Below, one piece after another: positions 9,903 through 63,865 of a stretch of DNA of 64,000 bases. Each line of letters begins with the position of its first letter. The first letter of the stretch is position 1. A model generated the notes under the pieces. It was given only the letters and a program-made list of their open reading frames with translations, was not told the DNA's origin and did not search any database. Location: assembly GCF_031195445.1 (NCBI RefSeq), contig NZ_CP133480.1, forward strand, positions 1,846,001 through 1,910,000. Reading direction: 5' to 3'. Origin of the DNA: Acuticoccus sp. MNP-M23 (GTDB taxonomy: Bacteria; Pseudomonadota; Alphaproteobacteria; Rhizobiales; Amorphaceae). The position numbers and the translations under genes are program-made.

Positions 9903-9952
9903 CCGGCGCCAGTCATGGCGCTGCCCAGCCTTCAGGAGGAGACATCGCAGCC

Positions 9953-48000: not shown

Positions 48001-51000
48001 CCCGACACCGGCCGGGTTGGCCGGCCCAAGTTCCGCTTCTCACCCGGGGGCCTGCTTCTCGATTTCGATACCGCTAAATTGAAAGAGGGCGCACTCGGGA
48101 TCCTGGGGTCATTCCCCTTGAAGTTCTCTGGTCTCGGCTGGCTGGAAGACGGCGTTACGCTCCCGCAACTCGGCTTCTTTCAGCTCGGCGGCATCGGTAC
48201 TGCCGGCCGCGGCGCCTCGAGGTTCGTGTTGAACTTCGACCTCGACCTTGGCGCACTCGGGCATCTGGCCTCCACACTAGAAGCCCTCAAGATGAAGCTC
48301 GCCATCGGCTTCGGCATCGACAGCGGGAACAGCGGGGTCTGGGATTTCGGCTTTACGTTCGAAGGTTCGGGCGGACGCGGCCTCGACATCGGCCTCCAAG
48401 GCATTCTGAAACTGACTTGCGAAGCCTACGAGCTCAGGGAATTCAACAAGGACGGACAGACTTTCTGGGGCTTCGTTGGCGTCAACGCAAAGCTAATCGT
48501 GCTTGGCGAAGAACTGCCACCCGAAGGAACGACCGCCAACCTTTTTCTGTTCGTGGATCCGGGTAACCTCAGAGGCGCGCAGGATGTCGGATGGTTCCTT
48601 GGCGCGAGCGGTGGCGAGTTTGGCGTGGTCGAACTCGATGTCCTCGCCCTTGGCCAACGCGTCGATCCGCTCCCCGGACTCGGCGCTGTTGCCAGCACGC
48701 GCGACGCGCTCGCCAGCTTGAAGGACCTCAGCGCAAACGATCCTGAAAAAATCATCGAGTTGTTCAACGAGAACAAGATTGTCTTTGACAAAAATCGCGG
48801 ATGGAGTATCGCGTTTAAGGGGACGATCTACAAGCTTGTCGAGCTTGGCTTCGTCATGAGAGACCCGGATCTAGCTGGGATCTTGTTCGACCTAAAGCTG
48901 CAGGAGGGGTCGGACGAAACGCTTTTTTCGATTGATATCCTGTACCGCAAGCTGACCGACGAGCTCGGCGTCTACGCTACTCTGATAACGCCTCCGCCAG
49001 CGCTGCGGCATATCGAAATGGGAGCGGTATCGATCACCTTGCCCTCGATCGGGCTTGAGATCTTCACCGATGGCGGCTTTACGATCGATCTCGGCTTCCC
49101 CGCTGGCAAGGATTTCTCCCGCTCCTTTGCGCTTAGCATACTGCCCTTCACCGGTGCCGGGGGATTTTACTTCCGGCGCGTCTCTGGTCCGGCGGCACGC
49201 TTTCTGCCGCGCCAGCTGCGGTACGACGCACCGGGCGGTCAAATATTGGAGGCCGAACCGATAGATCTGCGCTACGATCCGATCACCGAAGCCGAAGTGG
49301 CCTTCCGCGTCGGGATCGGCAAGGACTACAACTCCGGCCCACTCCGCGCAGGATTGTCGCTGACGGTCTACGCCTTTCTCGGCGGCGGCTTCGGCACACT
49401 CTTCAGCAGCGACCCCTTGACATTCCGCACGGGTGCGGCGCGGCGTTACATCGTCGTTGCCGGTGCCGTCGGCGTGATGGGCGAAGTCTACGGCTATGTC
49501 GACTTCGGCATCGTGCGTGCCGGCGTCTCGATACAGCTGTGGGTCGAGGTCGGCTTCCGATTGGAAACCGACCGTGCGACTCGCCTTCACTACGAGGTCG
49601 GCGTCCGGGTTCGTATCGTGATCGTGGTCGCCCGCATCAAGATCTTCGGCAAGCGGATTGAAATCAAGGCTTCCTTCGCCTTCGACACAACGCTGCGCTT
49701 CACCACGATGTTCGGTCGCTCCAACGACACCTACTACATCCGCTCGGATCAGTCTGCGTTCAGCGATGCGGCACAGATCGCCGGAGATGTCGACTGGACG
49801 CGCATTCCCCAACCGGCAGATTGGCTGCCGAACGGCGAGAAGCTGGCGATCGAGCTCATCTTGCAGCCCGACGTCACGCTGGCGGAATCACAAGGCGAAT
49901 TTCACGCGCATGCCGTCATGATGCTTGCGGCGGTGCTTCCAAGGGTAAACGAGAACGTCTCGCCGATCGAGCGGCTGGTTCAGGGGATGACCCTCTGGGC
50001 GCTGAAGGCGGGCTTTGGAGGCGCCGACGCCACGACGGCCGAGGAGCTGACGGCGTTCGCGGAGTCCCTTGCGGGCGACGGCCTGGCCGCAGTGAAGGCG
50101 CGCCGGACCCGCTTGCCCGGGTTCGCGCAGCTCACGAGGTTCCTCGCAACCAACTTCGCGGCGACGCTCCGCCGGCCCGAGGACGACCCGGCTTCCGGCG
50201 ATAGCGCGCCGGACGCTGCTCCGATGCCGTTCCCGCCGGGCCTGACGCTGAAGATCACGCGCGGCGGAACGGCGGAGGCCGAGCCGTACGATCCGTCAGC
50301 GTTCACCTTTGTCGATGACGACTATCGCGATGAGCTGGATGCCGCCTTCCGACGCTTTCAGCTTGCTCAGGGCGAGGACGACGAAGACGTCGCCCTCGAC
50401 ATGCTGGGCGACGGGCCGATCTCGCTGTGCGAGGCGCTGTTCGAAGAGTGGGCCGGGATGCTCATCCGTTCCGGCGTAGCTTGGCTGGCACACCGGGCCG
50501 ACGAGTTGGCCCCGGAAGGTTCCGTCCGGTTGCAGCCCCTCCTTGACGCCCTCGTCGTCCGCGGCGAGAGCGACCGTCTTCGCAGCCCGGCTGCCGAGAT
50601 CGCCGCCGTCACCGGGCGGTTCATGCTATACGGCCACCGCGCGCCCCAGCCAGGTTCGCCCGTCGGGCCTCTTCCGCCGCAGCTGCCTGCGCCCGACCGC
50701 GCGGACGACGCCACAACGCGTCCCGACGTGCGCTTCCACCAGCCGCTTTTCCTGCTTGCCGGTCTCCAGCTCCCCCTCTCGGGTATAGCGGCGCTGGCGC
50801 CGGTGGGCGGTGACGTCGGCGGCTGGCTGACCGTGCCGCCTGACCACGCCACGGATGTCGACGCGACCCTGGTCGAGGCGTATGTCGCCGCCGCTGCCGA
50901 CGCGACGATCAAGGCCGTGCTCGAGGACGGCCCGCTTTATGTGGAGCGTCCCCGCTATGTCGCTGTTGCCTCCTACGAGCAGGCCTCGCGCCTGGCCGAC

Positions 51001-54000
51001 GCCGACGTGTCCCCCGCGCCGAGGCTCTGGCGGTTCGGCGCGGAGGCGTTGGAGGTGCTCGACGGGGGGCGCGGCGCGGGCGACCCGCCGGGCCTGTTCC
51101 TGGCCGACCCGATGGACGCCGCCAAGCGAAGCTTCGAGAAGGTCGCGGGCGCGCTGTCGTCGGACCTGGCACCCGCAATCGTCGTCGACGTCGAGATCCG
51201 TCAGCTCGATCCGATCGCACCGAACGCCTTCGAGATCGGGGCCCTGCCCGAGGCGCTTCGCGTGCTGCTGGACCCCTTCGCCGAGGGCGCGGCGGGAGAT
51301 GCGGACCGCCCCGGGCTGACGGGCTTGCGTCTCTACAAGCGAGACACGGAGGGCGCGAGCCTGCTGCCGATCGGCGGCGATACCGGGCTCGCGACGCTGA
51401 TCCAGACGAACCTTTCGGTTGAACCGAAGCCGTTGGACGCCGCGGATGTTCTGGACGCCCAGGCTGACGATGACCCGGTGCCCGCGATGGCACAGAACGA
51501 CAGGCCGCTCGATTTCCTGCGCTTGCTGCGCCGGGCTGCGACCGTCAACACCGGCGGCTACTACATTGCGTATCCCGGTGCGTCGGAGGAGCTGGACGAG
51601 TTATTCGAGCGTGGTGACGAACCGACCTTCGAAGAGGGGACGCGGATCGCACAGGTGCACGTGGTGGCGACGCTCGATCCGACCCACGCGCGCGCCCTGT
51701 TCTACGCCAATGCACTGCGCAGCGCGTTCGGGGCGGCGGAGGAACCGAGTGAGACGTCCATTCTCGCGTTCGGCGCCGGACCGACGCGCGAGCCACTGCA
51801 CGAGCCCGGAGTTCTGCCGATCAAGGTGCGGCGCCCGATCGCGCCCGACATTGACGATACGGCCGATGCGCTCGGCAAGGAAATGGCGGAGGAGCTCGCA
51901 GCGCGTTTTTCGATGCTGGCGGTCGAGGTGGTGGTTCGCAACGCCGCCGGCGCGGAGATCGGCCGACAGCACGCGGACCAGGCCATCGCCTTCGGCCCGG
52001 ACTTGCCCGAGACCGGTCCGACATTCGACGATCTGGCCGAGGATGACGACCTCGTGTACCGCGCGCCGATCCCGGTCACCCGGATCGCCGGCGTCTCCAA
52101 CCCCTATGGCCTCGTGGGCGGCGGCACGATCTCACTCCGAGGTCTCTGGCGCGACATCTACGGCAACGCCTGGAAGGATGATGCCTTTTCCGAGATCAAG
52201 CGCACCATGCGCTACTCCGATCGTCTCGTCGGACTGGGCGACGTGCCGTTCATCTCCGTGGCCTTCTGGCCAGATGAAAAAACGCGCCGCCTGAAGCTCG
52301 GCGCCGTTGCCACTTTCGACGCTTTGCTGAGCCTCGACGGCAGAACGGGCGAAACGTCAGCGCCGGACGACGCTTGGCTGGCGTCGCGGCGCACCGAGCT
52401 GCGCCGCGCCGCGGCGTCTGTGACACGGGCAGCCGACCAGCTCGATGACGCCAACGTGACGCTGACATTTGTGTGCTCCCTGGCCACGCCAGAAGACGCG
52501 CCCGACGAGGCGGGAGTCGGCGTCGAAAAGCTGGCGTTCGTGAAGGTGCTGCGACGCGCGGCCGAGGTACTGGGCGATCTGAGCGCTGCGCATCCCGACG
52601 GGACAACACGGTCCGGCATAAAGCGAATGATCCGCCAGGCGGTGGAGCCGAACGCCGCAGCCCTTCAACACATCGAGGACATCGACCTGCCGCCGGTTCG
52701 CACCAACGTGTTCGTCGAGTTCGAGGCGATGCTTCGGACGGCGCGCGATTCGCCGACGGAACGGCCAGACCTCTACCCTGAGCATGAGGAGACGCCGACG
52801 GAGGTGTTCATCGCCGAGAATCGGATCGCCCCGAACCTTGAACGTCCGGGCACCGGAGCCGAGAAGGGCATGACGCCTTTCGCTCTGGGATCGGGCGATA
52901 TGGCGGAGTTCCTGTGGGCGCTTGCTGCCGTCACGCCCGATCATCTCATCGCCATTGGTCACGGATCCACGCCGGGGCTCACGGAGAAGGCGATCTGGCT
53001 GGTCGCGCGAGACCCCGTCGACACGAAGCTTGGCGGGGAAGTCTATGCGGAAACGCCGATCTCGCTCGCGATCCCGCCGCTCGCGACGGCCGCCCGCAGC
53101 TATGTCTTCGGCGAGGAGAACCCGCTGGAGGTCTTTGTCGGTGGACCGACGGCGGAGGCGCAAACGCGCAACTTTCGTGACGTCGATGCCGACCACTATG
53201 GTCGCCTGGCGCTTTCGCTCATCGAGAGGCTGCTGGAACCGCGGATCGCGGCCGGCTTCGCAGGCACGGCCGTGGATCGGGCCGAACTGCGCGCTGCTCT
53301 CGACGGGCTGCTGGCCGCGAAGGAAGGGCTTGCGAACGAGTTCGCCGTGCGCGCCTCAGTGGTCCTGCAGGATCAGACCGCGGCGTACGACGGCCTCACT
53401 TCCGAGCGCCGAGAGGAGGTCGTGAACCGGCTCGCCGATCGGTTCAAGCGCGACCTGCGGACGGTCTACACACTGGAGAGCGCGCTGCTCTACCCCGATC
53501 CCGACACCGCGTCGCAGCTCGACGCCCATCCCGTGGCCCACGGCGTGGTGCACCGCGTCGGGCCCGAGGCCGTTACGCTCAGCGCATACAATCTGCCCTT
53601 CGCGGGACGCGGGGAGGCGACGGCGCGGGATCTCCTGGTCCTGTGCGAGGTGAACCCGAAGTTCGACGGCGCTCATCAAGCGTCGTACGCGCTGCCGAAC
53701 CGCTTCGAGATCACGCATCTGCAGCGTCTCGCGCGGCCGAGCAGGGCCGACCGGCGCGATCGCTACCGCCCGACGGCGTGGCTACGGCTGGTGAGCGACA
53801 CCGCCGCCCTCGCCATCACGCTGCCCACCGATGGCTTCATACCCGCGCCCGACCGCGGCCTCCCCCCGAAGCCGATCATCGACGCGGAGGGCTACACGGT
53901 CGGGGCTCTGGACGACACCGAGTCGCTGTCGAAACGCATCGACGCCACTCGGGCCTGGACATCGTGGCGCGAGATCGTCTGGACCTCGGAGAACGAAAAC

Positions 54001-55107
54001 GACCGCCTGAAGACGGTCGTGATCTACGGGGCGCGGGAGCTGGAGGGCGATGCCGCGGACGTGATCGACGAGCCGCTGGACATGCGCCTGGTCCGCTTCG
54101 TTCTGGAGACCGATATCGTTTTGGAGGCGGCTGGCCGCGGCAACTTCGACGCGTTCAAGTACGCTGGCGCACGAGCCAGAAGCCTGTTCGATCGTGCGCC
54201 GTCGGACGTTGCGGCGACAAGCGACACGCTGGAAGCACCATCAGCCGGGCGCGACGAGGCAACCTTCAGCGAACCTGCCAACCCGCCCTTCGGCGTGCCG
54301 CACGTCAGGGCCGAGGACGTCAGTCTCACGCAGGCCGACCTCATCGCCTATGCTCACCCGAATGCTTTCCTTGGACTCGCCGACCGTGAGCCGGCGGAGG
54401 TGACGTCCAACGGCGAGCAGCCATTCGGCGACGGGCCCGGCGCCGGCGGCGGAAAGAGGCGGCGCATCGAGATGCGCGGTCTCGACATCATCCGCCACGC
54501 CAACGCGGAGACCGAACTTACCCAGACACGCAATACCCACATCAAGGGGCGACCGTTGCAGGAGCTCTTCATTTACCGCCTGCCGATCATCGCGTCCGGC
54601 GAGAAGGTCTCGCCGGTGCTCGATCGCCTGGTGGAGATCCATGTCGGTGCTTTCGACCCTGACGATGAGGCGTCGGCGCGGACAGCGATCGCCGCCCTTC
54701 TCCAGGCATTGCTGGCGGTCGACGCGGAGGCTTCCCCGCCAACGCCGGCCCCCGGCTACGTGCTCGATGTGGTGGTGGAGTACGAAAGCGGGCTGTTTGC
54801 CACGCCAGCACCGCGGGATGCCGGTCCTGACGGCGCGGCTCCCGACGGACTGCTCGACCGCGGCGGTCCGATCATCTCCATCCGCGTCGAGATCGACGGC
54901 ACGCGCCTCGAGAACGCGGCCAACGCAATTGCCGAGGATGTCAGCCGATGGTTCCGCACCGAAAAGCCGGGTCGGCGTGGGGGCCTACCGATTGGCGCCG
55001 TCATCGTCGATGCGCGCCTCTTCGTGTCCCAGGGGCCCGAGGCAGGGCGCCGCATCCTGCGGCTGCGGCGCTGCCGGTTCGACTTTAATAAGCGAGGAGA
55101 AATGTAG
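45034..55107 (+). CDS. Giant protein of 3357 residues, unknown function
   Basis: An uninterrupted frame of 10,074 nt. No signal peptide is visible (MVQLNRVRSTSLFAVGGDVS). Residues about 1-650 are beta-rich with no recognised motif. Residues about 950-1560 alternate hydrophobic and Gly-rich strands (for example FRFSPGGLLLDFDTAKL, FVLNFDLDLGALGHLASTL, ILPFTGAGGFYFRRVSGPA), suggesting a long beta-solenoid or barrel-like body. From about 1600 onwards it is a mixed acidic alpha/beta sequence, including a Pro/Ala/Asp-rich middle. I recall large DUF6603-type proteins with similar DFSRSF...GGFYF wording, but cannot verify this. It is coupled to the OmpA-domain gene (13-bp overlap). It could be a secreted or surface filament, toxin or scaffold; none is proven. 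Confidence 0.85.
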   Translation: MVQLNRVRSTSLFAVGGDVSAPFGVAFFPDAPNPAGDTLTVDDAAVQAGFFAIWSGNAPSDAGLASIETRLDQARDAATVLRRDTLHFFSAPDFSEPAVIATSEGDSNFFLKDATLELRTTNGEILKGAHSVSIGRSRIAAEGTALVLKPIPGAQHQLRFGDSDRLPVALFSIPLSGPHAGAVICDTAAPPPRVSRNGFSNTFTQRGDLVVDDDGGKFYSINRVERPPIVSGDATGRSELCFSARFDILDATNPDRTCFEPRATKGPLLSGFAGTNGHIWTLTPRPAEADAGGMRRGTMPRFVYVRRRTSETIDEIPRYERAFLALEGDFDGGLAHPVETASDATSEDAIAEFPLGPHGLVVGEGAHEFLIVGRRPHADTAAKTRPVVMFRRGGGYIAPSTDTTISTSAPTLEARDATTDAASWIAVTEAPEDAVTVAAAPAVSEPRDLRRIEGGSDAAAADTPLRLLPDPVLLTPRDEAGPSPDFTPGPNRFLPAVPQDVLGKRDGRRIDSVAERLAVIRRERLIAQRPRDTLQGDTLATEPVRKRTPNGFEIEEQDGRIVAVVLGRSRSVDGPVSGSISLRGRGVDGKPQPLASPFVDALIRNELFIVLNDHPAPTIASGESAVLQADLEISGWNFRFDFGEQWARYEAEQQKPKPEDRLKIQLPFTLIKVYEGKSISELIEEPGLWTWSQRLRAKASGVDPVANAKAQIKTMIDRAKTPGSDGKLDHLFATFRRAVDDPSWTGVLLLEMPIGLANLPEQVSGLASGMDTSRLFAHHLGIPIRRLGKAEDEPNMLFAAIEYASTASEKPQYDEKLVAEPFSGGREPAANGADDAFAIRVESLRVGFSNGALQSFECDLRLKIGNFFHDTDINVFEVDKTQGELAVQEIALKGRFTRRREGADTYESYDFFSDTIFKLKTNRLPLVSGATLRRIGYVTTVSQVDNVRSVASRFDIDGDLTFKAVNSVDFIDLDSLAFRNLGIDLSFKVPDTGRVGRPKFRFSPGGLLLDFDTAKLKEGALGILGSFPLKFSGLGWLEDGVTLPQLGFFQLGGIGTAGRGASRFVLNFDLDLGALGHLASTLEALKMKLAIGFGIDSGNSGVWDFGFTFEGSGGRGLDIGLQGILKLTCEAYELREFNKDGQTFWGFVGVNAKLIVLGEELPPEGTTANLFLFVDPGNLRGAQDVGWFLGASGGEFGVVELDVLALGQRVDPLPGLGAVASTRDALASLKDLSANDPEKIIELFNENKIVFDKNRGWSIAFKGTIYKLVELGFVMRDPDLAGILFDLKLQEGSDETLFSIDILYRKLTDELGVYATLITPPPALRHIEMGAVSITLPSIGLEIFTDGGFTIDLGFPAGKDFSRSFALSILPFTGAGGFYFRRVSGPAARFLPRQLRYDAPGGQILEAEPIDLRYDPITEAEVAFRVGIGKDYNSGPLRAGLSLTVYAFLGGGFGTLFSSDPLTFRTGAARRYIVVAGAVGVMGEVYGYVDFGIVRAGVSIQLWVEVGFRLETDRATRLHYEVGVRVRIVIVVARIKIFGKRIEIKASFAFDTTLRFTTMFGRSNDTYYIRSDQSAFSDAAQIAGDVDWTRIPQPADWLPNGEKLAIELILQPDVTLAESQGEFHAHAVMMLAAVLPRVNENVSPIERLVQGMTLWALKAGFGGADATTAEELTAFAESLAGDGLAAVKARRTRLPGFAQLTRFLATNFAATLRRPEDDPASGDSAPDAAPMPFPPGLTLKITRGGTAEAEPYDPSAFTFVDDDYRDELDAAFRRFQLAQGEDDEDVALDMLGDGPISLCEALFEEWAGMLIRSGVAWLAHRADELAPEGSVRLQPLLDALVVRGESDRLRSPAAEIAAVTGRFMLYGHRAPQPGSPVGPLPPQLPAPDRADDATTRPDVRFHQPLFLLAGLQLPLSGIAALAPVGGDVGGWLTVPPDHATDVDATLVEAYVAAAADATIKAVLEDGPLYVERPRYVAVASYEQASRLADADVSPAPRLWRFGAEALEVLDGGRGAGDPPGLFLADPMDAAKRSFEKVAGALSSDLAPAIVVDVEIRQLDPIAPNAFEIGALPEALRVLLDPFAEGAAGDADRPGLTGLRLYKRDTEGASLLPIGGDTGLATLIQTNLSVEPKPLDAADVLDAQADDDPVPAMAQNDRPLDFLRLLRRAATVNTGGYYIAYPGASEELDELFERGDEPTFEEGTRIAQVHVVATLDPTHARALFYANALRSAFGAAEEPSETSILAFGAGPTREPLHEPGVLPIKVRRPIAPDIDDTADALGKEMAEELAARFSMLAVEVVVRNAAGAEIGRQHADQAIAFGPDLPETGPTFDDLAEDDDLVYRAPIPVTRIAGVSNPYGLVGGGTISLRGLWRDIYGNAWKDDAFSEIKRTMRYSDRLVGLGDVPFISVAFWPDEKTRRLKLGAVATFDALLSLDGRTGETSAPDDAWLASRRTELRRAAASVTRAADQLDDANVTLTFVCSLATPEDAPDEAGVGVEKLAFVKVLRRAAEVLGDLSAAHPDGTTRSGIKRMIRQAVEPNAAALQHIEDIDLPPVRTNVFVEFEAMLRTARDSPTERPDLYPEHEETPTEVFIAENRIAPNLERPGTGAEKGMTPFALGSGDMAEFLWALAAVTPDHLIAIGHGSTPGLTEKAIWLVARDPVDTKLGGEVYAETPISLAIPPLATAARSYVFGEENPLEVFVGGPTAEAQTRNFRDVDADHYGRLALSLIERLLEPRIAAGFAGTAVDRAELRAALDGLLAAKEGLANEFAVRASVVLQDQTAAYDGLTSERREEVVNRLADRFKRDLRTVYTLESALLYPDPDTASQLDAHPVAHGVVHRVGPEAVTLSAYNLPFAGRGEATARDLLVLCEVNPKFDGAHQASYALPNRFEITHLQRLARPSRADRRDRYRPTAWLRLVSDTAALAITLPTDGFIPAPDRGLPPKPIIDAEGYTVGALDDTESLSKRIDATRAWTSWREIVWTSENENDRLKTVVIYGARELEGDAADVIDEPLDMRLVRFVLETDIVLEAAGRGNFDAFKYAGARARSLFDRAPSDVAATSDTLEAPSAGRDEATFSEPANPPFGVPHVRAEDVSLTQADLIAYAHPNAFLGLADREPAEVTSNGEQPFGDGPGAGGGKRRRIEMRGLDIIRHANAETELTQTRNTHIKGRPLQELFIYRLPIIASGEKVSPVLDRLVEIHVGAFDPDDEASARTAIAALLQALLAVDAEASPPTPAPGYVLDVVVEYESGLFATPAPRDAGPDGAAPDGLLDRGGPIISIRVEIDGTRLENAANAIAEDVSRWFRTEKPGRRGGLPIGAVIVDARLFVSQGPEAGRRILRLRRCRFDFNKRGEM

Positions 55108-55204
55108 CGCGGGCTTGGCCTACCCGGAGACGGAGATACTGATCTGGAGCGGTACCCGCTTACGGTGGATCTTTGCGGGGTTCTCGAATGGGCGGAAGTC
55201 ACAC

Positions 55205-55233
55205 TTGCGCGGGACCTCCGGCGGCGATTTAAT
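55205..55233 (+). promoter_or_regulatory. Candidate promoter for the M35 protease gene
   Basis: TTGCGC (55205-55210) and TTTAAT (55228-55233) are separated by 17 bp, a good sigma-70-type match, within the 151-bp gap after the giant gene. A GGAGG ribosome-binding site (55250-55254) follows. It suggests the protease pair can be expressed separately from the rest of the cassette. Confidence 0.35.
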
Positions 55234-55258
55234 ATCCGAAGACCGTACTGGAGGCATG

Positions 55259-56344
55259 ATGAATCTTTGTTTGAACAAAGACCGTTTTGGAATTTTCCGT
55301 TATGTGATGGCCGTGTCCGCAATTCTGATGACCGCGCCCGCGGCCATGGCGCTCGATGGGCCGGCGGTCAGGGTCACGCTCGAAGTGCCCGAGGTTGACG
55401 GGACCATCGCGCTGTCGTTCCGGATCACCAACGAGACCGACGGGCCGGTGCGCATCCTCGGCTGGGACACGCCACTCAACGGGCTCCAATCGGACATATT
55501 CCGCATCACCAACGCGGCACAGCTCGCACCCTATATCGGTCGCAAGTACAAGCGCGCGGCGCCTACGGACGCTGACTACTTCGTTCTTGAGCCGGGCGCC
55601 ACGCGGTCGGCGACCGTCGACCTGACCGAGAGCTATGACATCTCGGCCGCAGGAACCTACAGTGTCGAATACGAAGCCAATCCGCTGCCGGTCACGGAGC
55701 GGTTGTCTAGGACCGATGAGAGCCTCGCCGGTGGCGCACGCCTTGAAAGCCGTCCGGCGCTGTTCCGGCTGACCACACCGCGACCGTTGTCCGAGATCGT
55801 GCTCGAGCAGTCGCTGGCCGCGCAGACCCCAGTCTTCCGCAATTGCTCCGCCGCGCGAAAATCCACCATCGGCGCGGCCCTCACGAAGGCGGACGAGATC
55901 ACGCTCGAAGCTGAGAAAACTTTGCGCGACACGCCGGTCGCGGACAGGCCGAACAAGGCGCGGTACAAGACCTGGTTCGGGGTGTACGACACCGCACGGT
56001 ACACGCGGGTTCTGGCCAACTTCAGCAAGATCTCGGAGACGACCCAATCAAAGACGATCACCTTCGACTGCGATTGCAACGACAGTGCGTTCGCCTATGT
56101 GTATCCGAACAGACCATACGAAGTCTGGCTTTGCAACGCATTCTGGTCGGCGAACACCTCGGGAACGGATTCGCAGTCCGGGACGATCGTTCACGAGCTG
56201 AGTCACTTCACGGTCGTGGCCGGGACCGACGATCACCAGTACGGGCATACTGACGCCAAGGCGCTAGCGATTTCGGATCCGGGCCGTGCAATCGACAATG
56301 CGGACAGTCATGAATACTACGCTGAGAACACGCCGGCTCAATAA
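55259..56344 (+). CDS. Secreted aspzincin metalloprotease (M35, peptidyl-Lys type)
   Basis: A 361-aa protein with a signal peptide (residues about 1-32, ending TAPAAMALDG). An N-terminal beta-sandwich domain (about 33-170: FRITNETDGPVRILGWDTPL, YIGRKYKRAAPTDADYFVLE) is followed by the protease domain. The zinc site is H312-E313-L-S-H316, and the third ligand is Asp325 in the aspzincin motif G322-T-D-D-H-Q-Y-G329, which defines deuterolysin/peptidyl-Lys endopeptidases (M35). The CDCNDSAFAYVYPNRPYEVWLCNAFW block is typical of the bacterial/fungal LysMEP group. The start at 55259 was chosen for GGAGG spacing; an ATG at 55256 is equally in frame. It presumably acts outside the cell. Confidence 0.92.
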   Translation: MNLCLNKDRFGIFRYVMAVSAILMTAPAAMALDGPAVRVTLEVPEVDGTIALSFRITNETDGPVRILGWDTPLNGLQSDIFRITNAAQLAPYIGRKYKRAAPTDADYFVLEPGATRSATVDLTESYDISAAGTYSVEYEANPLPVTERLSRTDESLAGGARLESRPALFRLTTPRPLSEIVLEQSLAAQTPVFRNCSAARKSTIGAALTKADEITLEAEKTLRDTPVADRPNKARYKTWFGVYDTARYTRVLANFSKISETTQSKTITFDCDCNDSAFAYVYPNRPYEVWLCNAFWSANTSGTDSQSGTIVHELSHFTVVAGTDDHQYGHTDAKALAISDPGRAIDNADSHEYYAENTPAQ

Positions 56345-57213: not shown

Positions 57214-58201
57214 TGACGTTGCCCCCTGGAGTGTCCTCGGTCTGAACTGGACTCCGTCGGAAGGAGACGGAGATGAAGAAGAGCCGCTTCAGTGAGGAGC
57301 AGATCATCGCGGTGCTGAAGGAGCACGCGGCGGGGATTGGCGTTGCGGAGCTGTGCCGCAAGCACGGGATCAGTGATGCGACCTTCTACACGTGGCGCAA
57401 GCGCTACGGCGGCATGGAGGTTTCGGACGCCAAGCGGCTGAAGGCGCTGGAGGATGAGAACGCCCGCCTCAAAAAGCTCCTGGCCGAACAGTTGCTCGAC
57501 GTGGCGACGCTGCGGGACGCTCTGGGAAAAAACTTCTGACGCCCGGCGCGCGGAGAGGCTTCGTGAGCTGGGCGATTGAGAAGAAGGGGTATTCCCAGCG
57601 GCGCGCCTGTGCGCTGATCGGGATGCATCCGAGGACCTACCGCTACCGGTCGCAGCGGCCGGATGATGCGGCGATGCGCGAACGGTTGAAGGCGCTGGCG
57701 AACGAGCGGCGCCGGTTCGGCTATCGCCGCCTCCACATCCTGCTGCGGCGCGAAGGCCTCGTGGTGAACCACAAGAAGCTGTTCCGCCTCTACCGCGAGG
57801 AAGGGCTGACGGTGCGGCGCCGTGGCGGGCGCAAACGTGCGATCGGAACGCGCGCACCGATGACGCTGCCGCAGGAGCCGAACCAGCGCTGGAGCCTCGA
57901 CTTCGTCTCCGATCAGCTGAGCGATGGCCGGCGCTTCCGCGTCCTCGTCGTGGTCGACGACTTCACCCGCGAGTGCCTGGCGCTGGTCGTCGACACGTCC
58001 TTGTCGGGTGCTCGGGTGGCCCGTGAGCTTGACGGCCTCATCTATCAGCGGGGCAAGCCGCTGATGGTCGTCAGTGACAACGGCACGGAGCTGACGTCCC
58101 GTGCGATCCTCGAATGGAAGGAGAACCGCCGCATCGAGTGGCATTACATCGCACCAGGCAAGCCGATGCAGAACGGCTTCGTGGAGAGCCTGAACGGCCG
58201 G
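57214..58201 (+). mobile_element. IS3-family element 1, truncated on the right
   Basis: The left terminus begins TGACGTTGCCCCCTGG; the same end recurs at 39159. It carries orfA and most of orfB of an IS3-type transposase. At 58202 the sequence passes directly into the left end of a second IS3 element. The 3' part of orfB and the right inverted repeat are not found after that second element (after 59484), so the right end was deleted. Confidence 0.85.
57273..57539 (+). CDS. IS3 element 1 transposase OrfA
   Basis: An 88-aa helix-turn-helix and leucine-zipper protein: KKSRFSEEQIIAVLKEHAAG and AELCRKHGISDATFYTWRKR bind the IS ends, followed by a coiled-coil RLKALEDENARLKKLLAEQL. The start has a GAAGGAG site. 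A GGGAAAAAAC stretch near 57523-57532 is the probable site of the -1 frameshift that fuses OrfA to OrfB. Confidence 0.93.
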   Translation: MKKSRFSEEQIIAVLKEHAAGIGVAELCRKHGISDATFYTWRKRYGGMEVSDAKRLKALEDENARLKKLLAEQLLDVATLRDALGKNF

Positions 58202-58204
58202 TGA
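57563..58204 (+). pseudogene. IS3 element 1 transposase OrfB, C-terminally truncated
   Basis: About 213 residues of a DDE transposase in the -1 frame relative to orfA, nominal GTG start at 57563 (MSWAIEKKGYSQRRACALIG). The catalytic triad positions are visible (WSLDFVSDQL, VVSDNGTEL, GFVESLNGR), but the frame stops at the TGA of the inserted element's terminal TGACCTG. About 70 C-terminal residues are missing. Transposition activity is unlikely. Confidence 0.88.
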
Positions 58205-58267
58205 CCTGCCCCGGTATTTTCGGACCAACAATTCCTTGAGAGGCTGCCCTCCGGCATGGAGGGAAGC

Positions 58268-58531
58268 ATGCGCAAGTCGAGGCTCACGGACGAGCAGATG
58301 GTGTCGATCGTGCGGGAAGCGGATCGCGACACAACACCGACAGTGGCCAAGCGGCACGGCGTCAGCGAGCAGACCATCTACACGTGGCGTAAGCGCTTTG
58401 GCGCGCTCGAGGCCGACGACGTGCGGCGGCTGAAGCAGCTGGAAGCGGAGAACGTCCGGCTCAAGAAGCTGGTGGTCGAGCGGGATCTCGAGATCGAGGT
58501 GATGAAGGAGATCGCTGCAAAAAAATGGTGA
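58268..58531 (+). CDS. IS3 element 2 transposase OrfA
   Basis: 87 aa starting MRKSRLTDEQMVSIVREADR (GAGGGA upstream; an ATG at 58256 is also in frame). The HTH (AKRHGVSEQTIYTWRKRFGA) and zipper (LKQLEAENVRLKKLVVERDL) are complete. An A7 run at 58519-58525 just before its stop is the expected slippery site for -1 frameshifting into OrfB. Confidence 0.92.
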   Translation: MRKSRLTDEQMVSIVREADRDTTPTVAKRHGVSEQTIYTWRKRFGALEADDVRRLKQLEAENVRLKKLVVERDLEIEVMKEIAAKKW

Positions 58532-58562
58532 GCGTGTCGGAGCGTCGCGCGGCCGTGGGGGC

Positions 58563-59456
58563 CTGTCGCAGCGGCGCGCCTGCACGCTAATCGGGGTTGC
58601 ACGGTCGGCGCTCTTCTATCGTTCACGGCAGGCGGAGAAGGACGCGCCGGTGCTGAGGCGCATGGCCGAGCTCTCGGCGCAGTATCCGCGCTACGGGTAC
58701 CGCCGGATCGCGGTCTTCCTCGGTCGCGACGGTCACGCCATGAGCTTCGAGCGGGCGTATCGCCTGTGGCGGCGGGCCGGGCTGCAGGTGCCGCGCAAGC
58801 GGCCGAGGAAGCGCATCGCCGCGGGCCGGCCGCGTCCGATGGCGCCGACCGGGGCGAATGAGGTGTGGAGTTACGACTTCGTGTTCGACTGGTGCGCCAA
58901 CGGCCAGAAGCTGAAGTGCCTGACGATCACCGACGAGTGGACCAGGGAGGGCCTGGCGATCGAGGTCGACGGACGCATCCGCTCCTCGCGCGTCATCGAA
59001 GTGCTGTCGCGCCTCGTGTCCGAGCGCGGCGCGCCGCTTTACCTGCGGTCCGACAACGGGCCGGAGTTCGTCTCCCGCGCGCTGCTGGCGTGGATCGTCG
59101 ATCAGGGCGCCGACACGGCGTTGATCGATCCGGGCAAACCTTGGCAGAATGGCGCCGGAGAGAGCTTCAACGGCAAGTTCCGCGACGAGTGCCTGAGCCT
59201 GGAATGGTTTCGATCGCGGGCCGAGGCCAAGGTGACGATCGAAGCCTGGCGCCGGCACTACAACGAGGTGCGACCTCACTCGAGCCTCGGCTATCTGACG
59301 CCGGCCGTCTTCGCGGCGAAGACCAGCACCGAACACCCAACGGCCATGACGGGGCGGACCGCTGCGGTATGTGGGGCCTCCGCGGCCCGCCCCGTCGTCC
59401 AACCGCCCCGCACGGGGCTCAACGAGGCAGACATAGGGGCAGCGCTCTCAAGCTAA
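58563..59456 (+). pseudogene. IS3 element 2 transposase OrfB with a 5' frameshift
   Basis: The DDE integrase domain is well preserved (NEVWSYDFVFDW; LYLRSDNGPEFVSR; NGAGESFNGKFRDECLSLEW; YNEVRPHSSLGYLTP). The expected -1 frame after the slippery site starts MVSVSERRAAVG at 58525 but runs to a stop at 58588, while the body (LSQRRACTLIGVARSALFYR) resumes in a different frame from 58563. A small deletion around 58557-58562 therefore breaks the OrfAB fusion. A start at the ATG at 58650 could still make a shorter protein. Confidence 0.8.
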
Positions 59457-59536: not shown

Positions 59537-59741
59537 GTGAATTAGATCCGCATTACCGCGCGGTTGATTCGGTCAGGTCGGGTAACGCTCTAGGCACGCA
59601 TGTGTCTTTGTGCTGACCTCAGTTGGCCCCGTTATGCTGACGGCCACGAGTTTTTGGATTGCCATGCACAATACATGCAAGTAGTTTTGTGGGAGTATGC
59701 GAAAAAAATTGTGCCGGAAAACAACCGCCGGCTGGCCTAGC

Positions 59742-59990
59742 TCAAAAACTCTTCGAGATGACGACCTTAATCGTCCACTCGGCGCGGCCTGCGAGTCTTT
59801 CGGCCGCTTCTTCGAGCATTTCGAAGTCGAGCTTCCTGATGGCTTCAACGTCCTTTGCCGTCAGGTCAAAACGTTTGGCCAATTCGTCAGGGTTATTTTT
59901 CAATTCCGCGCGCAAATCCTTGTCGGTCAGCGCCCGGCCAAGCAGTTCGACGAGACCTTTCTGCGGGTTGTCGCCAGTTTCCCTAACCAT
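59742..59990 (-). CDS. Putative RiPP precursor with NHLP/Nif11-like leader
   Basis: An 82-aa peptide, last gene of the operon, 12 bp after tfuA. Residues about 10-68 form the helical leader: LVELLGRALTDKDLRAELKN, PDELAKRFDLTAKDVEAIRK, LDFEMLEEAAERLAGR. The pattern of a short degraded enzyme-like leader with a D-x-x-x-R-x-x-L...NP start matches NHLP/Os1348-type precursors. The C-terminal tail after ERLAGR (residues 70-82, AEWTIKVVISKSF) is a likely core: it has no Cys, one Trp, two Ser, one Thr. No double-Gly site is seen. It could alternatively be a small recognition protein rather than the modified substrate. Confidence 0.62.
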   Translation of the reverse strand: MVRETGDNPQKGLVELLGRALTDKDLRAELKNNPDELAKRFDLTAKDVEAIRKLDFEMLEEAAERLAGRAEWTIKVVISKSF

Positions 59991-60002
59991 AACCCTCTCC
60001 TT

Positions 60003-60662
60003 TCAAACGGTCATTTCAATATCGTTGTGTTCGGTGGGCATCATGCCGGCCACATGGTTGAGGGCCGCACGGGCATCAGCGCCCTTGATGTCGGGAATGG
60101 CGGCCTCGGCACGGATGGCTGCTGCCCTGTCATCACCCACAGCCTTTGCAAGTGCGTCGTAGACCTTTGATGGCGTGCGTTCGGCGAAAAAAACCCGCTT
60201 GAGCGCACGAAAGATCGCCGCAGCCTCGGCTTTGGTCACCAGATCGGCATGGCTCAGGGTTTCCATCCAATGCGCTATGTCCACCAGAGGCACGGTTAAG
60301 GCGCTCAGATCGTGGGGAGCATAGCACAGTGCGACCTCATCCTCTTGCCGGATCCAGGTTTGCTTGAATCGGTTAAAGACCCAGCCGATCCCTTCCATCC
60401 CGAAACTGTCAAGCTCGGCGGCGCGCAACGCCCCCATACTAGAGGCACCAACAACGCGAACCCCCTGATCCAGAAGATTGAGGATCTCTTTCGGCGTCAC
60501 AGCCAGCGACTGGCCAAACTGACCGTCGATGATCACGATGACGTCCCAGTCGATCATGCCCGCCAGATCATCGCGTTTGATGGGGGGGAAATAGGTCGCT
60601 TCAAGCAATTGGCGGGCGTCGCGCTGGCGCAGAGATGGGCCAAGGAACACCGCCGTCTTCAT
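60003..60662 (-). CDS. tfuA: TfuA-like protein (YcaO partner)
   Basis: A 219-aa TfuA-domain protein. The N-terminus MKTAVFLGPSLRQRDARQLL and the GVRVVGASSMGALRAAELDS block are the family core; the C-terminal helical part has AEAAAIFRALKRVFFAERTP. TfuA proteins accompany a subset of YcaO enzymes and are linked to peptide-backbone thioamidation (methyl-coenzyme M reductase and thioamide RiPPs), probably by delivering or activating sulfur. Its ATG overlaps the stop of the radical SAM gene (ATGA, 60659-60662). Confidence 0.9.
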   Translation of the reverse strand: MKTAVFLGPSLRQRDARQLLEATYFPPIKRDDLAGMIDWDVIVIIDGQFGQSLAVTPKEILNLLDQGVRVVGASSMGALRAAELDSFGMEGIGWVFNRFKQTWIRQEDEVALCYAPHDLSALTVPLVDIAHWMETLSHADLVTKAEAAAIFRALKRVFFAERTPSKVYDALAKAVGDDRAAAIRAEAAIPDIKGADARAALNHVAGMMPTEHNDIEMTV

Positions 60663-62248
60663 GACGTTACCTGTTGTAAATCATTGCGCTGGCGCACCAT
60701 CGACGGTCCGCGCGCGGCGCTGTCAACGGTTGAGGCTGCCTTGCGATTGCGTCGTCGGGTGCGTCGGAACAGGCCCAGGGCCAGCCCGATGCCGATTCGG
60801 TCGGCATCGTCTTCCGCGCCCTGCAACAGCCGTTCTTCGGTAAGGCGGTTGCCGGCTTCCATCAGCGCCAGCACCTCCTTATCAAACAGGCTGGAGCCGA
60901 CTGTGAAATCGAGCGCGCGCATCGATTTTTCCAGATAGGCGCGTTTCTCGTCCCTGTTCTCTGTGGGCAGGTTGAAAAAGCCGGGGAAGAGATGCGGTGC
61001 CATATCGATGACCTCGGCAACTTCAGCCGCGCGTTCGTCCAGCAGAACGGCGGGCAAAAGCAACCAGTCGCTGTCTTCCGGTGCGGGGCGCTGTAAAGTG
61101 CCCTCAAAGTTGAGGTAGATCGGTGAACTGGGTAGTGGGCTGAGCATGTGCATCTGCACGTTTACCTTGGGCGCAAGCTGCGAGGCAGCACTGGCAAGCG
61201 CCAGCGTTTCCTCAAAATCCTCAAGCGTTTCGAAGGGGTAGCCCCAGATAAACGAGGCCTCGACCCGATCAAAATAGCGCTGCGACATCTCAAGCGTCGG
61301 CAGCACCGTCTCAGCCCTGAGCTCCTTGAAAGTCCGATTCAGTACCTTTTGCGCACCGGAATCGATGCCATAGAAAACAGCGCGGCAGCCCGCCTGCGAC
61401 ATCAACGACACCAAATCTTCGTTCATCAGGTTGATACGACCGAAGCAGCCCCACTCGATCTTGATACCGCGATCCAGGATCTCCCGGCAGAACGCGCGCA
61501 CCCGGTCGCGGTTCAACACAAACGTGTCGTCAACGATGGCGATTTTGTCGATGCCAAACCGATCCCGCAGCATGACGATCTCGTCGACAGCGCGTTTGAC
61601 GTCACGGTATACGGCGCGTCGGCCCCAAAGCGGGGCTACGTCGCAGAACGAACATTTGTACGGGCAACCGCGGGTCGTGATCACGCGGGCAGAGCTATAG
61701 CGTGACCAGTCTAGCAGGTGATAGGCAGGCCAGGGAAGGTTGTCTGCATCCGTGATCCGGGGGCGCTCTGAGCCGTCGACGAGTGTGTCACCAGCGCGCC
61801 AGACCAGTCCCGCGACAGGGTCGCTGACCAGCGTGGCCAGAACGTCGATGCCAAAGAACGCCTGAATGGTCTTCTCGCCTTCGCCGCGCACGATGCCGTC
61901 AACCCAGGCAAAGGCCTCCATCAATTCGCGTGCATTTCCTGAAACACCAGGACCGCCCAGGATGATCTTGCAACCAGGATCGGCGGCCTTAAGCTTTTTG
62001 CAGGCGGCCAGGACCACGGGCAGCATGTCGACAAAGCACGAGATCAGAACGTACTCCTCGTGCCCCTCCAAAGCCCGAACGAACGTGTCGGCGGAATAGC
62101 AGTCTGACCCCTCGTGCAGTTGGTAGTCGCGAAAATCGACCTCCAGCCCAATTTGTTCAAGGGCGGCTGCGATGTAGAGTGGACCTAGCGGTGGCTCAAT
62201 CTTTCCGTCTTCGCCCAGGGTAGCGCTAAAGAGCGTGACTTTGGTCAT
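60659..62248 (-). CDS. B12-binding-domain radical SAM protein
   Basis: A 529-aa protein. Residues about 1-130 form a Rossmann-like cobalamin-binding-type domain (GPLYIAAALEQIGLEVDFRD; CKIILGGPGVSGNARELMEA). A radical SAM domain follows with C195-x3-C199-x2-C202 (RGCPYKCSFCD) and SAM-binding strands (KIAIVDDTFVLNRDRVRAFC; EWGCFGRINLMNEDLVSLMS). The C-terminal 130 residues are family-specific. Family members methylate unactivated carbons or make other radical changes; which reaction occurs here is not readable. It overlaps YcaO upstream (ATGA, 62245-62248) and TfuA downstream, so it belongs to the peptide-modifying operon. Confidence 0.9.
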   Translation of the reverse strand: MTKVTLFSATLGEDGKIEPPLGPLYIAAALEQIGLEVDFRDYQLHEGSDCYSADTFVRALEGHEEYVLISCFVDMLPVVLAACKKLKAADPGCKIILGGPGVSGNARELMEAFAWVDGIVRGEGEKTIQAFFGIDVLATLVSDPVAGLVWRAGDTLVDGSERPRITDADNLPWPAYHLLDWSRYSSARVITTRGCPYKCSFCDVAPLWGRRAVYRDVKRAVDEIVMLRDRFGIDKIAIVDDTFVLNRDRVRAFCREILDRGIKIEWGCFGRINLMNEDLVSLMSQAGCRAVFYGIDSGAQKVLNRTFKELRAETVLPTLEMSQRYFDRVEASFIWGYPFETLEDFEETLALASAASQLAPKVNVQMHMLSPLPSSPIYLNFEGTLQRPAPEDSDWLLLPAVLLDERAAEVAEVIDMAPHLFPGFFNLPTENRDEKRAYLEKSMRALDFTVGSSLFDKEVLALMEAGNRLTEERLLQGAEDDADRIGIGLALGLFRRTRRRNRKAASTVDSAARGPSMVRQRNDLQQVTS

Positions 62249-63573
62249 TGCATCGCTCCTTGCAAAACGTGCGAGACGCGTTCGCCGAAGACGCCACGCC
62301 CAGTGTGAAGGTGAAAGACGGACCAGGCCTCGGCCTTGGGCACAACCACGCGTACAACCGGAATGCCGACTTCCGGGCGAGTCAGGTCGAAGGCCACGGC
62401 TTGATTCAGCCCATAATCCGGCATCCTGTCCAGGATCAAACGGATATCGTCATCGATGGACGCGTTCTGCACCGATGGCACGTCGTCAAAGTCGATGAAA
62501 TCCGTGCCGCCATAGAGCTCGTCTGCGTCGTATGGCGCGCGCGGTTTGATGATCTCGGGCAGGTCCTCGCGCCCGCCTTGAATACAGGCGATGCGGCTTT
62601 GGGCGGCTTCGGTGATGGCCCGGTTGAGAGCGATCCGCGCGTCGGGATGGGTGCCACAACCGCCATGGGCATTGGGAATGCCGGAGGCCGTCGGCTCCAC
62701 GATCGTGCAATCAATGGTTGCCAACCCTGCGGTCGAGGTCAGGTTGCGCACATAGATGCTCAGGCCCGCGCGCTTCAGCCGACCTACCAGCAACGCCGCC
62801 CGTCGCGGCAGCCCCTCCAGCCGGATTTGGGCATGCTCGGCGTTTTGAAGTGCCGATGGCGGGCTGCTGATACCGATGCTTTCCAGCAGATCCCCAATGG
62901 CTGGCGCCACCTGTGACCGCGCAAGCGATATTGCCAGGGCATCGCGTTCGATCACTTCGCACAGCGCGTGGCACAGCGCTTCCGTCAGCGTGTTGCCCGA
63001 GGCCAGTCCGTTGGTACTCGCGTAAAACAGCGCGGGGACATCTGTCGGCGTGTAAGGGCAGACCACCGCGTTCAATGGTGCCGCTGTGGCGCGTTGGCCA
63101 ATCAGGTCATAGCCGTGCACCCATTCGACAGGCGTTTGATCGTCGAACGCGCAGGCATTGGGCACGACGATTTCGGCCAGCTTGGTGAGCGGCGTTGTCT
63201 CGGCCAGTTCCGCCTGTGAGGCGTGGGTGACTGGATAATCGCAATGCTCCCCTGCCTGCCGCTCCACCGCTTCCATCAGCGCCCCAGCCAGAGCGTCCAG
63301 CCGCGTGGTCCCCTTGCCGTTATAATAGGAAATGCCAGGCCCCAGGTCGCGGGGCCGCACCGTCATGAAGTTGGGAATGCCAACGTAATCCAGGCCCGTA
63401 ACCTCGGCGACCTGGGTAACGCCGACACGCTCGATCAGCCGCTTTGCGCGCCGTACGGTTGCGGAGGGTGGCACGCATCGTGCGACCGCTTTGGTCGAAT
63501 ATTTTGGTGTTAGCTTAAGCTGCCAGTACTGGGAGGTTGTTCTACGATCTACCCTGTCAATCAACGAGCGCAC
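62245..63573 (-). CDS. YcaO-domain ATP-dependent peptide cyclodehydratase/thioamidase
   Basis: A 442-aa YcaO protein with a GTG start at 63573. The ATP/Mg-binding Glu pairs are E101/E104 (GALMEAVERQAGE) and E206/E209 followed by R210 (ALCEVIERDA). The C-terminus (VLQGAMQ) lacks the PxPxP of azoline-forming YcaO proteins. The enzyme activates a peptide backbone amide by phosphorylation. No E1-like or ocin-ThiF partner is nearby, and TfuA is, so thioamide formation is the leading inference. It is the first gene of the four-gene operon YcaO, radical SAM, TfuA, precursor. Confidence 0.93.
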   Translation of the reverse strand: MRSLIDRVDRRTTSQYWQLKLTPKYSTKAVARCVPPSATVRRAKRLIERVGVTQVAEVTGLDYVGIPNFMTVRPRDLGPGISYYNGKGTTRLDALAGALMEAVERQAGEHCDYPVTHASQAELAETTPLTKLAEIVVPNACAFDDQTPVEWVHGYDLIGQRATAAPLNAVVCPYTPTDVPALFYASTNGLASGNTLTEALCHALCEVIERDALAISLARSQVAPAIGDLLESIGISSPPSALQNAEHAQIRLEGLPRRAALLVGRLKRAGLSIYVRNLTSTAGLATIDCTIVEPTASGIPNAHGGCGTHPDARIALNRAITEAAQSRIACIQGGREDLPEIIKPRAPYDADELYGGTDFIDFDDVPSVQNASIDDDIRLILDRMPDYGLNQAVAFDLTRPEVGIPVVRVVVPKAEAWSVFHLHTGRGVFGERVSHVLQGAMQ

Positions 63574-63628
63574 ACCCCAAATGTTTCAGATGCCATTCGA
63601 TCGCTAAAATTGACTGGTTAAGCCTAGG

Positions 63629-63662
63629 GAGGCAAATGCTATTACAAAATGGTATCTGCCTC
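63629..63662. repeat. Imperfect inverted repeat upstream of the YcaO operon
   Basis: GAGGCAAATGCTATT is mirrored by AATGGTATCTGCCTC with 12 of 15 paired positions, followed on the plus strand by TTTTAATTTT. It lies in the AT-rich 290-bp region before the YcaO start. It could be an operator for that operon or a weak plus-strand terminator. Confidence 0.4.
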
Positions 63663-63865
63663 TTTTAATTTTCTCGCTCATAGATTGAACTATGCCTCAA
63701 TTTGAAGGGTCGATCATAGTCAAGAAAGCTAGCAAAAAAGATAACCTGAATTCTTATACGATTGGCCTTGGCAATCAACCGGAGACAATCCGAAGGATAA
63801 AACACGGGAGGACGAATTTCAACTCGCCTTACCCCCTGTCTGTTGGGGGCAACTGCGCTGTTGGC

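Follow-up and report, generated by a model that had tools for sequence, protein, structure and literature searches.

A putative thioamide-forming peptide operon combining YcaO, TfuA and a B12-binding radical SAM enzyme, found in Acuticoccus sp. MNP-M23 and in three bacterial phyla

Background

Four consecutive genes encoding a YcaO protein, a B12-binding radical S-adenosylmethionine (SAM) enzyme, a short TfuA protein and an 82-residue peptide form an operon in the genome of Acuticoccus sp. MNP-M23 and recur as a set in three bacterial phyla. The operon lies in a stretch of 64,000 nucleotides (contig NZ_CP133480.1, positions 1,846,001 to 1,910,000), hereafter referred to as the window. It is likely to be a horizontally moved gene cluster for a ribosomally synthesised and post-translationally modified peptide (RiPP), in which YcaO and TfuA would thioamidate, and the radical SAM enzyme would probably C-methylate, the short hydrophobic tail of the peptide.

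In the proposed scheme, where both the sites and the order of the modifications are conjectural, the 82-residue peptide would be the substrate, with its folded Os1348-type N-terminal part acting as the recognition leader and its last ~11 residues as the core. Using ATP, YcaO would activate the tail at one or several backbone amides, which would become thioamides (O to S, a gain of 16 Da each) with sulfide provided by TfuA. The B12-dependent radical SAM enzyme would most probably methylate an unactivated tail carbon (+14 Da each), and the leader would be cut off by a protease encoded outside the unit. Such a very small operon, with just three enzymes and one peptide, would pair predicted backbone thioamidation with B12-dependent radical SAM chemistry on a single gene-encoded substrate and could show whether the two chemistries stack on an 11-residue tail.

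Results and discussion

Organisation of the operon

The YcaO, radical SAM, TfuA and peptide genes lie consecutively on the minus strand (63573 to 59742), with overlaps of 4 bp at the YcaO/radical SAM and the radical SAM/TfuA junctions and a spacing of 12 bp between the TfuA and peptide genes, which holds a AAAGGAGAGG run resembling a ribosome site. YcaO, the predicted backbone-amide kinase and thioamide former (62245..63573, minus strand; GTG start, 442 aa), scores 225.4 bits against PF02624 (cut-off 25.7). The 529-aa predicted C-methyltransferase (60659..62248, minus strand) carries a B12-binding domain (PF02310, 59.8 bits, cut-off 32.1) and a radical SAM domain (PF04055, 73.4 bits, cut-off 29.5), and the short TfuA (60003..60662, minus strand; 219 aa), the predicted sulfide-delivering partner, scores 129 bits against PF07812 (cut-off 30). 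The predicted precursor gene (59742..59990, minus strand) encodes an Os1348/NHLP-type leader, assigned by NF038399, by a phmmer match to 6lk7 and by a structural model, followed by the 11-residue C-terminal tail WTIKVVISKSF (59745..59777, minus strand), the proposed core, which was delimited by comparison of the tails among six loci.

The coordinates, the 12-bp gap and the 4-bp overlaps given in an earlier note on this DNA proved to be exact, and its identification of YcaO, TfuA and a radical SAM enzyme with a cobalamin domain is borne out by scores above all the respective Pfam cut-offs. Promoter and terminator scans of the operon gave a signal no stronger than that in shuffled sequence. In its gene content the operon agrees with the TfuA-associated thioamidated RiPP clusters, with YcaO and TfuA in one operon (the radical SAM gene lying between them) and a conserved precursor gene in six of six loci.

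Occurrence and movement of the four-gene set

When genome contigs were scanned with the window radical SAM protein, 346 relatives were found, of which the best 80 stretches, representing 79 loci, were examined and searched with the four window proteins (tblastn, E 1e-3). Within the stretches examined, radical SAM and TfuA genes occur together in five of these loci and in no others, and all five carry an Os1348-type peptide gene; the search for all four proteins together, as the earlier note had proposed, hence returned five further loci and three phyla in total. These are in Aliiroseovarius halocynthiae (Pseudomonadota; L051, radical SAM protein 93% identical), Acidobacteria gp5 (L049, 57%), Planctomycetota (L050, 57%), Acidobacteria gp4 (L052, 54%) and on a Planctomycetales contig that begins inside the radical SAM gene (L053, 54%). 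The gene order YcaO-radical SAM-TfuA-peptide is found in L050, L051 and L052, the order in L053 agrees with it as far as the contig goes, and L049 shows the order YcaO-radical SAM-peptide-second YcaO-TfuA. The peptide gene was located by tblastn in three of the five loci and by lists of open reading frames (ORFs) and a profile in L049 and L053. A profile of the six peptides matched once, and only once, in every one of these six genomes; the match was the operon's own peptide, and the peptides were themselves rows of that profile.

Homologous loci lacking the peptide, or carrying it at random positions, had been named beforehand as grounds for abandoning the proposal; the search found the peptide in all six loci, and following TfuA in the window, L050, L051 and L052, with L053 in agreement. 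Since the four-gene set recurs in five other genomes, it does not owe its existence to chance. It is extremely improbable that the peptide is an independent small protein lying beside an enzyme operon by accident, as it is present in six of six loci from three phyla and has moved together with the operon; nothing was found in favour of such an accident beyond the predicted nature of the pairing itself.

The four-gene set is rare in every group sampled. In the host's order the score of the window TfuA is 478.6 bits, against 98.7 for the runner-up of 199 genomes; for YcaO the figures are 992.5 bits for the window protein, 177 for the next best in 398 genomes of the phylum and 180.6 for the next best in 61 relatives. 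Given this steep drop in the genomes sampled, a vertical, order-wide trait was rejected. The YcaO-TfuA loci obtained in these searches had no radical SAM or peptide match within the stretches of ~2-4 kb examined. A TfuA profile (A3) exceeded 350 bits in one of 392 Planctomycetota, one of 396 Acidobacteriota and one of 244 genomes of the order of A. halocynthiae, and in one genome each of the samples centred on L052 (97 genomes), L053 (99) and L050 (99), every such match being a locus genome already known from the radical SAM scan. The group searches for TfuA and YcaO covered samples of the groups, with the candidates scored per genome limited in some, and misses are possible.

A plasmid home was also rejected, the plasmid matches of the radical SAM protein (163 records) and TfuA (352 records) all being below 60% identity and a search of 72,556 plasmid records at E 0.01 leaving the peptide unmatched. 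A virus home was considered as well, and viral contigs gave 14 TfuA matches of 32-45% identity. None of the weaker TfuA relatives (L142-L147, L162 and L163) carries the four-gene set; L142, L146 and L162 have a radical SAM gene of the wider family nearby, with no Os1348-type peptide found. Among the 79 loci, L070 has a distant YcaO near the radical SAM gene, with no TfuA or Os1348-type peptide match.

Comparison of 20 kb around the operon (L003) with 13.6 kb of the A. halocynthiae locus (blastn, E 1e-5) gave a single block (59591..63826, minus strand) of 90.9% identical DNA over 4239 alignment columns, which runs from ~250 bp before YcaO to ~150 bp after the peptide gene and whose flanks are unaligned at this threshold. 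As this 4.2-kb block of homology is limited to the operon and its margins, exactly the four genes moved as a cassette, without a transporter or a protease, and the alignment indicates that this movement was horizontal. The two hosts probably belong to different orders, because the sample of the host's order contains at least 53 families, more than are presumably held by the order of A. halocynthiae. No convincing repeats were found at the cassette boundaries. The G+C content is 60% in the operon and 65% in the window. Transfer of just four genes between bacteria may be regarded as nature's own test of the completeness of the unit.

The predicted precursor peptide

NF038399 ('Os1348 family NHLP clan protein') is the sole Pfam or NCBIfam family that the 82-aa peptide matches above the cut-off (49.7 bits, cut-off 40); its score against Frankia_peptide (PF14407) is 28.6 bits, below the cut-off of 48. 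Scored singly against NF038399, the peptides of the other loci reach 53.0 (L051), 50.7 (L052), 45.3 (L053), 43.7 (L050) and 35.1 bits (L049), five of the six including the window thus exceeding 40. The peptide also matches Os1348 itself (6lk7; phmmer E 8e-5). Its AlphaFold2 model (mean pLDDT 68.3) shows helices within residues 9-68 and no structure for residues 70-82 (pLDDT < 50), and the three best Foldseek matches of this model of intermediate quality are 6lk7 chains (E 0.085-0.11, TM by query 0.61-0.63). The leader had been described in the earlier note as NHLP/Nif11-like; the NHLP half of that description stands, in the form of the Os1348 branch, and the Nif11 half was discarded, the Os1348/NHLP model alone having passed its cut-off. 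The choice of residues 70-82, a tail devoid of Cys, as the core has held up: the segment indeed lacks Cys, is unstructured in the model and is related in five of the six loci.

The tail ends in WTIKVVISKSF in both the window and L051 (11/11 identical), LTIKVVISKSF in L050 (10/11), LLIKIVIKGTF in L049 and ITIMVKITIHF in L052 (alignment A2). Between the window and the planctomycete locus L050 the tail is identical at 10 of 11 positions against 26 of 62 in the leader (Fisher p 0.003, a test of one pair selected after it had been noticed), and seven of the 10 identical tail residues use different codons, which argues for selection on the peptide rather than recent transfer of DNA. The precursors of L050 (8254-8598) and L052 (8242-8604) carry a Lys/Ala-rich extension of ~30 residues before the Os1348 domain; the peptides of the window, L049 and L053 lack this extension.

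Both a solved structure and a phenotype of the mutant are reported for Os1348 (PMC7726476). In Pseudomonas Os17 the protein PosA, evidently identical with Os1348, is described as modified by the HEXXH enzyme of its cluster, and the pos/pfl enzymes acting on Os1348-type precursors are of kinds other than YcaO, TfuA and radical SAM (preprint PMC12636437). It is rather unlikely that the modified peptide is neither cut nor secreted and acts in its full-length form, or serves inside the cell as a peptide cofactor or signal in the manner of the modified McrA and uL16 proteins. Such a mode of action would explain a moved unit without transporter or protease, and would agree with a tail nearly constant between Pseudomonadota and Planctomycetota (10/11) while the leader diverged, as also with the reported detection of full-length precursor in whole-cell lysates of Pseudomonas Os17 (preprint PMC12636437). 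Against it, Os1348 relatives are regarded as leader-core precursors, the tails of L049 and L052 are more divergent and that of L053 is wholly different, RiPP operons are said often to rely on proteases encoded elsewhere (preprint PMC12636437) and the window itself encodes a Lys-specific peptidase 3.4 kb away. A bolder view, which we hold to be unlikely, is that the operon represents a new class of RiPP, with three McrA-maturation-type enzymes acting on a small dedicated peptide, the product being nearly constant across phyla as a conserved cofactor or signal and not a fast-evolving antibiotic.

YcaO and TfuA

The best NCBIfam equivalog of the window YcaO is TIGR03266, the YcaO of McrA-glycine thioamidation (247.7 bits, below the cut-off of 365), and its nearest solved sequence is 6pe3 (MJ1094); the motifs MEAxER and HALCEVxERD are invariant in all six rows of the alignment (A4). 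TfuA scores 187.1 bits against NF033432 (below the cut-off of 235.2), and its nearest solved sequence, 6xp8, is matched by profile A3 with an E-value of 2e-48. Its residues S75 and K193, candidates for the catalytic Ser/Lys pair, are invariant in six of six rows and retained in 6xp8. Both YcaO and TfuA are reported as necessary for the thioglycine of McrA in methanogens (PMC7581889); TfuA is reported to free sulfide from thiocarboxylated ThiS for the YcaO step (PMC13185837).

The YcaO could instead perform another reaction, namely formation of an azoline or amidine or cleavage of the peptide, with TfuA assisting and no thioamide being formed. Enzymes of this family are indeed described as forming azolines and amidines and as capable of cleavage (PMC13063428), and both window proteins score under the equivalog cut-offs; such an outcome is nevertheless quite improbable, as the tail has no Cys, the unit has no E1-like or dehydrogenase gene, TfuA is termed a genomic hallmark of thioamidation (PMC13185837) and the nearest solved sequences of both proteins are the McrA thioamidation enzymes. 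These findings favour thioamidation as the predicted chemistry.

The archaeal nearest structures raised the question of an archaeal origin of TfuA and YcaO, which was not upheld: in the TfuA tree (55 rows) the six loci form one strong clade (100/99), to which three bacterial rows are weakly adjacent (82/82), and 6xp8 is unplaced. A second YcaO of the same genome (L005, G000:C1 near 4502677; 9468-10742, plus strand) is SagD-like with 142.3 bits, below the cut-off of 219, and is overlapped on the opposite strand by an ORF (9074-9526, minus strand) that appears NHLP-like by eye and has no NCBIfam match.

The B12-binding radical SAM enzyme

Besides its two domains, the radical SAM protein has the motif C195-x3-C199-x2-C202, invariant in five of five rows (alignment A1), and with the B12-binding domain, the radical SAM domain and CX3CX2C it is classified as a B12-dependent radical SAM enzyme. 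Foldseek with the model of the window protein (mean pLDDT 65.4, moderate) gave CysS, MgmA, TokK and TsrM as top matches. The nearest solved sequence is 9ccb, which is MgmA, the glutamine methylase of McrA (PMC11796369). The best NCBIfam relative is ApyD (NF050148; 184.3 bits, below the cut-off of 750), reported to form beta-methyltyrosine near the C-terminus of its RiPP precursor (PMC10635010), and the score against rSAM_ocin_1 (TIGR03975, RiPP radical SAM C-methyltransferases) is 83.6 bits, below the cut-off of 281.85. Methylation appears to be the likeliest reaction, because MgmA is the nearest solved sequence, ApyD is the best NCBIfam relative and the fold matches of the model are mainly methylases. 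A non-methylating radical change, such as a cross-link or other chemistry, is a real but doubtful possibility: ring contraction, C-C cyclisation and other reactions are described in the B12-dependent family (PMC10635010), and the dehydratase AprD4 is among both the sequence and the fold matches, while most of the nearest solved or named relatives (MgmA, CysS, TokK, TsrM and ApyD) are methylases, as are most solved B12-dependent radical SAM enzymes in any case.

The association of this enzyme with the peptide, inferred from the operon, extends beyond the six loci. An Os1348-like protein or one with a TIVGG motif is encoded within the stretch examined in 17 of the 24 next-nearest radical SAM loci (L054-L076 and L104; 31-38% identity) and in none of the 50 remaining, more distant loci, which strengthens the link between enzyme and peptide; the TIVGG criterion was added after inspection of the matches, and the profile alone (E < 0.5) gives 11 of 24 against 0 of 50. 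Two proteins from these loci, scored singly with the Os1348 model, came to 33.3 and 39.8 bits (cut-off 40).

The same 24 loci make up a second, larger group, in which the protein encoded next to the B12-binding radical SAM gene combines an Os1348-like domain with the motif TIVGG(R/Q)P at its N-terminus (examples are L076 1679-3515, L063 606-2561, L065 5042-5902 and L068 4983-5849). By eye these proteins show a hydrophobic segment and, in many cases, repeats of a G-I-x-P-D-type motif, and the one in L065 has an acyl-carrier-protein-like stretch below the cut-off. The group looks like a multi-core radical SAM peptide family in Planctomycetota, Myxococcota and others.

Genomic surroundings

The neighbourhood of the operon looks mobile. 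Two transposase gene pairs (HTH_Tnp_1 + rve, IS3-like; 57273-59456) lie directly downstream of the operon and a serine recombinase gene ~1.8 kb upstream; of the other loci, L051 has a TniQ gene close to the operon and L050 a phage-type integrase on its upstream side.

Beyond the two transposase pairs, 3.4 kb past the peptide gene and outside the block common with L051, lies an ORF on the other strand (54641-56344, plus strand) whose final part scores 147 bits as a lysine-specific M35 metallo-endopeptidase domain (PF14521). By eye the ORF has an internal signal-peptide-like stretch, and the proposed core has two Lys; no evidence ties this gene to the operon. An MFS transporter gene (PF07690) stands next to a TetR regulator ~10 kb upstream of YcaO, and the remaining ORFs of the ~20 kb upstream were mostly assessed by eye. 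The former statement that no E1-like partner, transporter or peptidase is nearby has therefore to be amended with respect to the peptidase, and holds in that none of these belongs to the conserved unit. In L049 (1795-3999), the operon is immediately preceded, on its own strand, by genes for a subtilase (S8) and an MFS transporter, which are candidates for a leader protease and an exporter. The window also contains a single ORF of 3357 aa (45034-55107) with no Pfam match at E 0.001.

Points that weigh against the proposed pathway

Several observations count against a thioamidated and methylated tail released from its leader. YcaO, TfuA and the radical SAM enzyme all score below the equivalog cut-offs of the functions tested, B12-dependent radical SAM enzymes catalyse reactions besides methylation, and the product, its mass and its expression are predictions made from sequence. 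The conserved unit has no protease or exporter, and neither the subtilase and MFS genes upstream in L049 nor the M35 peptidase of the window is part of it. The tail statistic depends on a single locus pair noticed before testing; the tails of L049 and L052 match that of the window at only 5 of 11 positions each, the corresponding leader counts being 21 and 19 of 62, and the tail of L053 is unrelated and proline-rich. Lastly, L144 (6616-9052; G1095, Acidobacteriota) carries YcaO, a short TfuA and a 71-aa Os1348-type peptide (43.4 bits against NF038399, cut-off 40) with a tail different from that of the window, and has no radical SAM match in the 16 kb covered. It is a simpler sister arrangement, from which it follows that the wider group can do without the radical SAM step.

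Comparison with known systems

Full-text searches, which covered few subscription papers and no supplementary files, showed among the papers listed no characterised product of YcaO, TfuA, a B12-dependent radical SAM enzyme and an Os1348-type peptide, an absence of limited weight. The contention that no characterised class has this exact set survives to that extent, and has to be qualified by reports already in print of TfuA-YcaO clusters with B12-dependent radical SAM enzymes or Nif11-like precursors (PMC8120280) and with precursors of the nitrile hydratase type (PMC6511847).

The clusters mined by Malit et al. 2021 resemble the window in having ycaO, tfuA and a precursor, some with a B12-dependent radical SAM enzyme (Bradyrhizobium and Desulforegula) or Nif11-like precursors (Desulforegula, Anabaena, Rhizobium, Simkania and Ruegeria) (PMC8120280). 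Going by the main-text descriptions, their precursors are of the GG-cleavage Nif11 or CCRG-2 kind, whereas the window has an Os1348-type leader without a Gly-Gly site, and the window unit is further set apart by the position of the radical SAM gene between ycaO and tfuA, the short TfuA and the lack of a transporter in the unit. Santos-Aberturas et al. 2019 describe one TfuA-linked precursor network, 'Network 7' of RiPPER, in actinobacterial clusters, all members of which have nitrile hydratase domains; it shares with the window the combination of TfuA-YcaO with a nitrile-hydratase-type precursor, and its description, the basis of this comparison in place of sequence, mentions no radical SAM enzyme (PMC6511847).

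The OS3/pos cluster of Pseudomonas Os17 (Os1348, PosA) has the leader family, and probably the fold, in common with the window, but its enzymes are described as GNAT, HEXXH and SagB-type/MNIO-nitroreductase proteins, with no YcaO, TfuA or radical SAM among them (PMC7726476, PMC12636437). In the aminopyruvatide cluster, ApyD, the best NCBIfam relative of the window enzyme, methylates a Tyr near the precursor C-terminus (PMC10635010); the window protein scores far below the ApyD cut-off of 750, and the MNIO, P450 and methyltransferase partners of ApyD are absent from the window unit.

By sequence, the solved structures closest to the three window enzymes (6pe3, 6xp8 and 9ccb) all belong to the McrA maturation set of methanogens (YcaO, TfuA and MgmA, also Mmp10). 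The window differs from it in its scores under the equivalog cut-offs, in the proposed substrate, which is an 82-aa peptide, and in a TfuA tree that leaves 6xp8 unplaced. Set beside these systems, what appears to be new is a putative thioamide-RiPP operon with a B12-dependent radical SAM enzyme and an Os1348 leader, which recurs as a unit in three phyla and has moved as a cassette.

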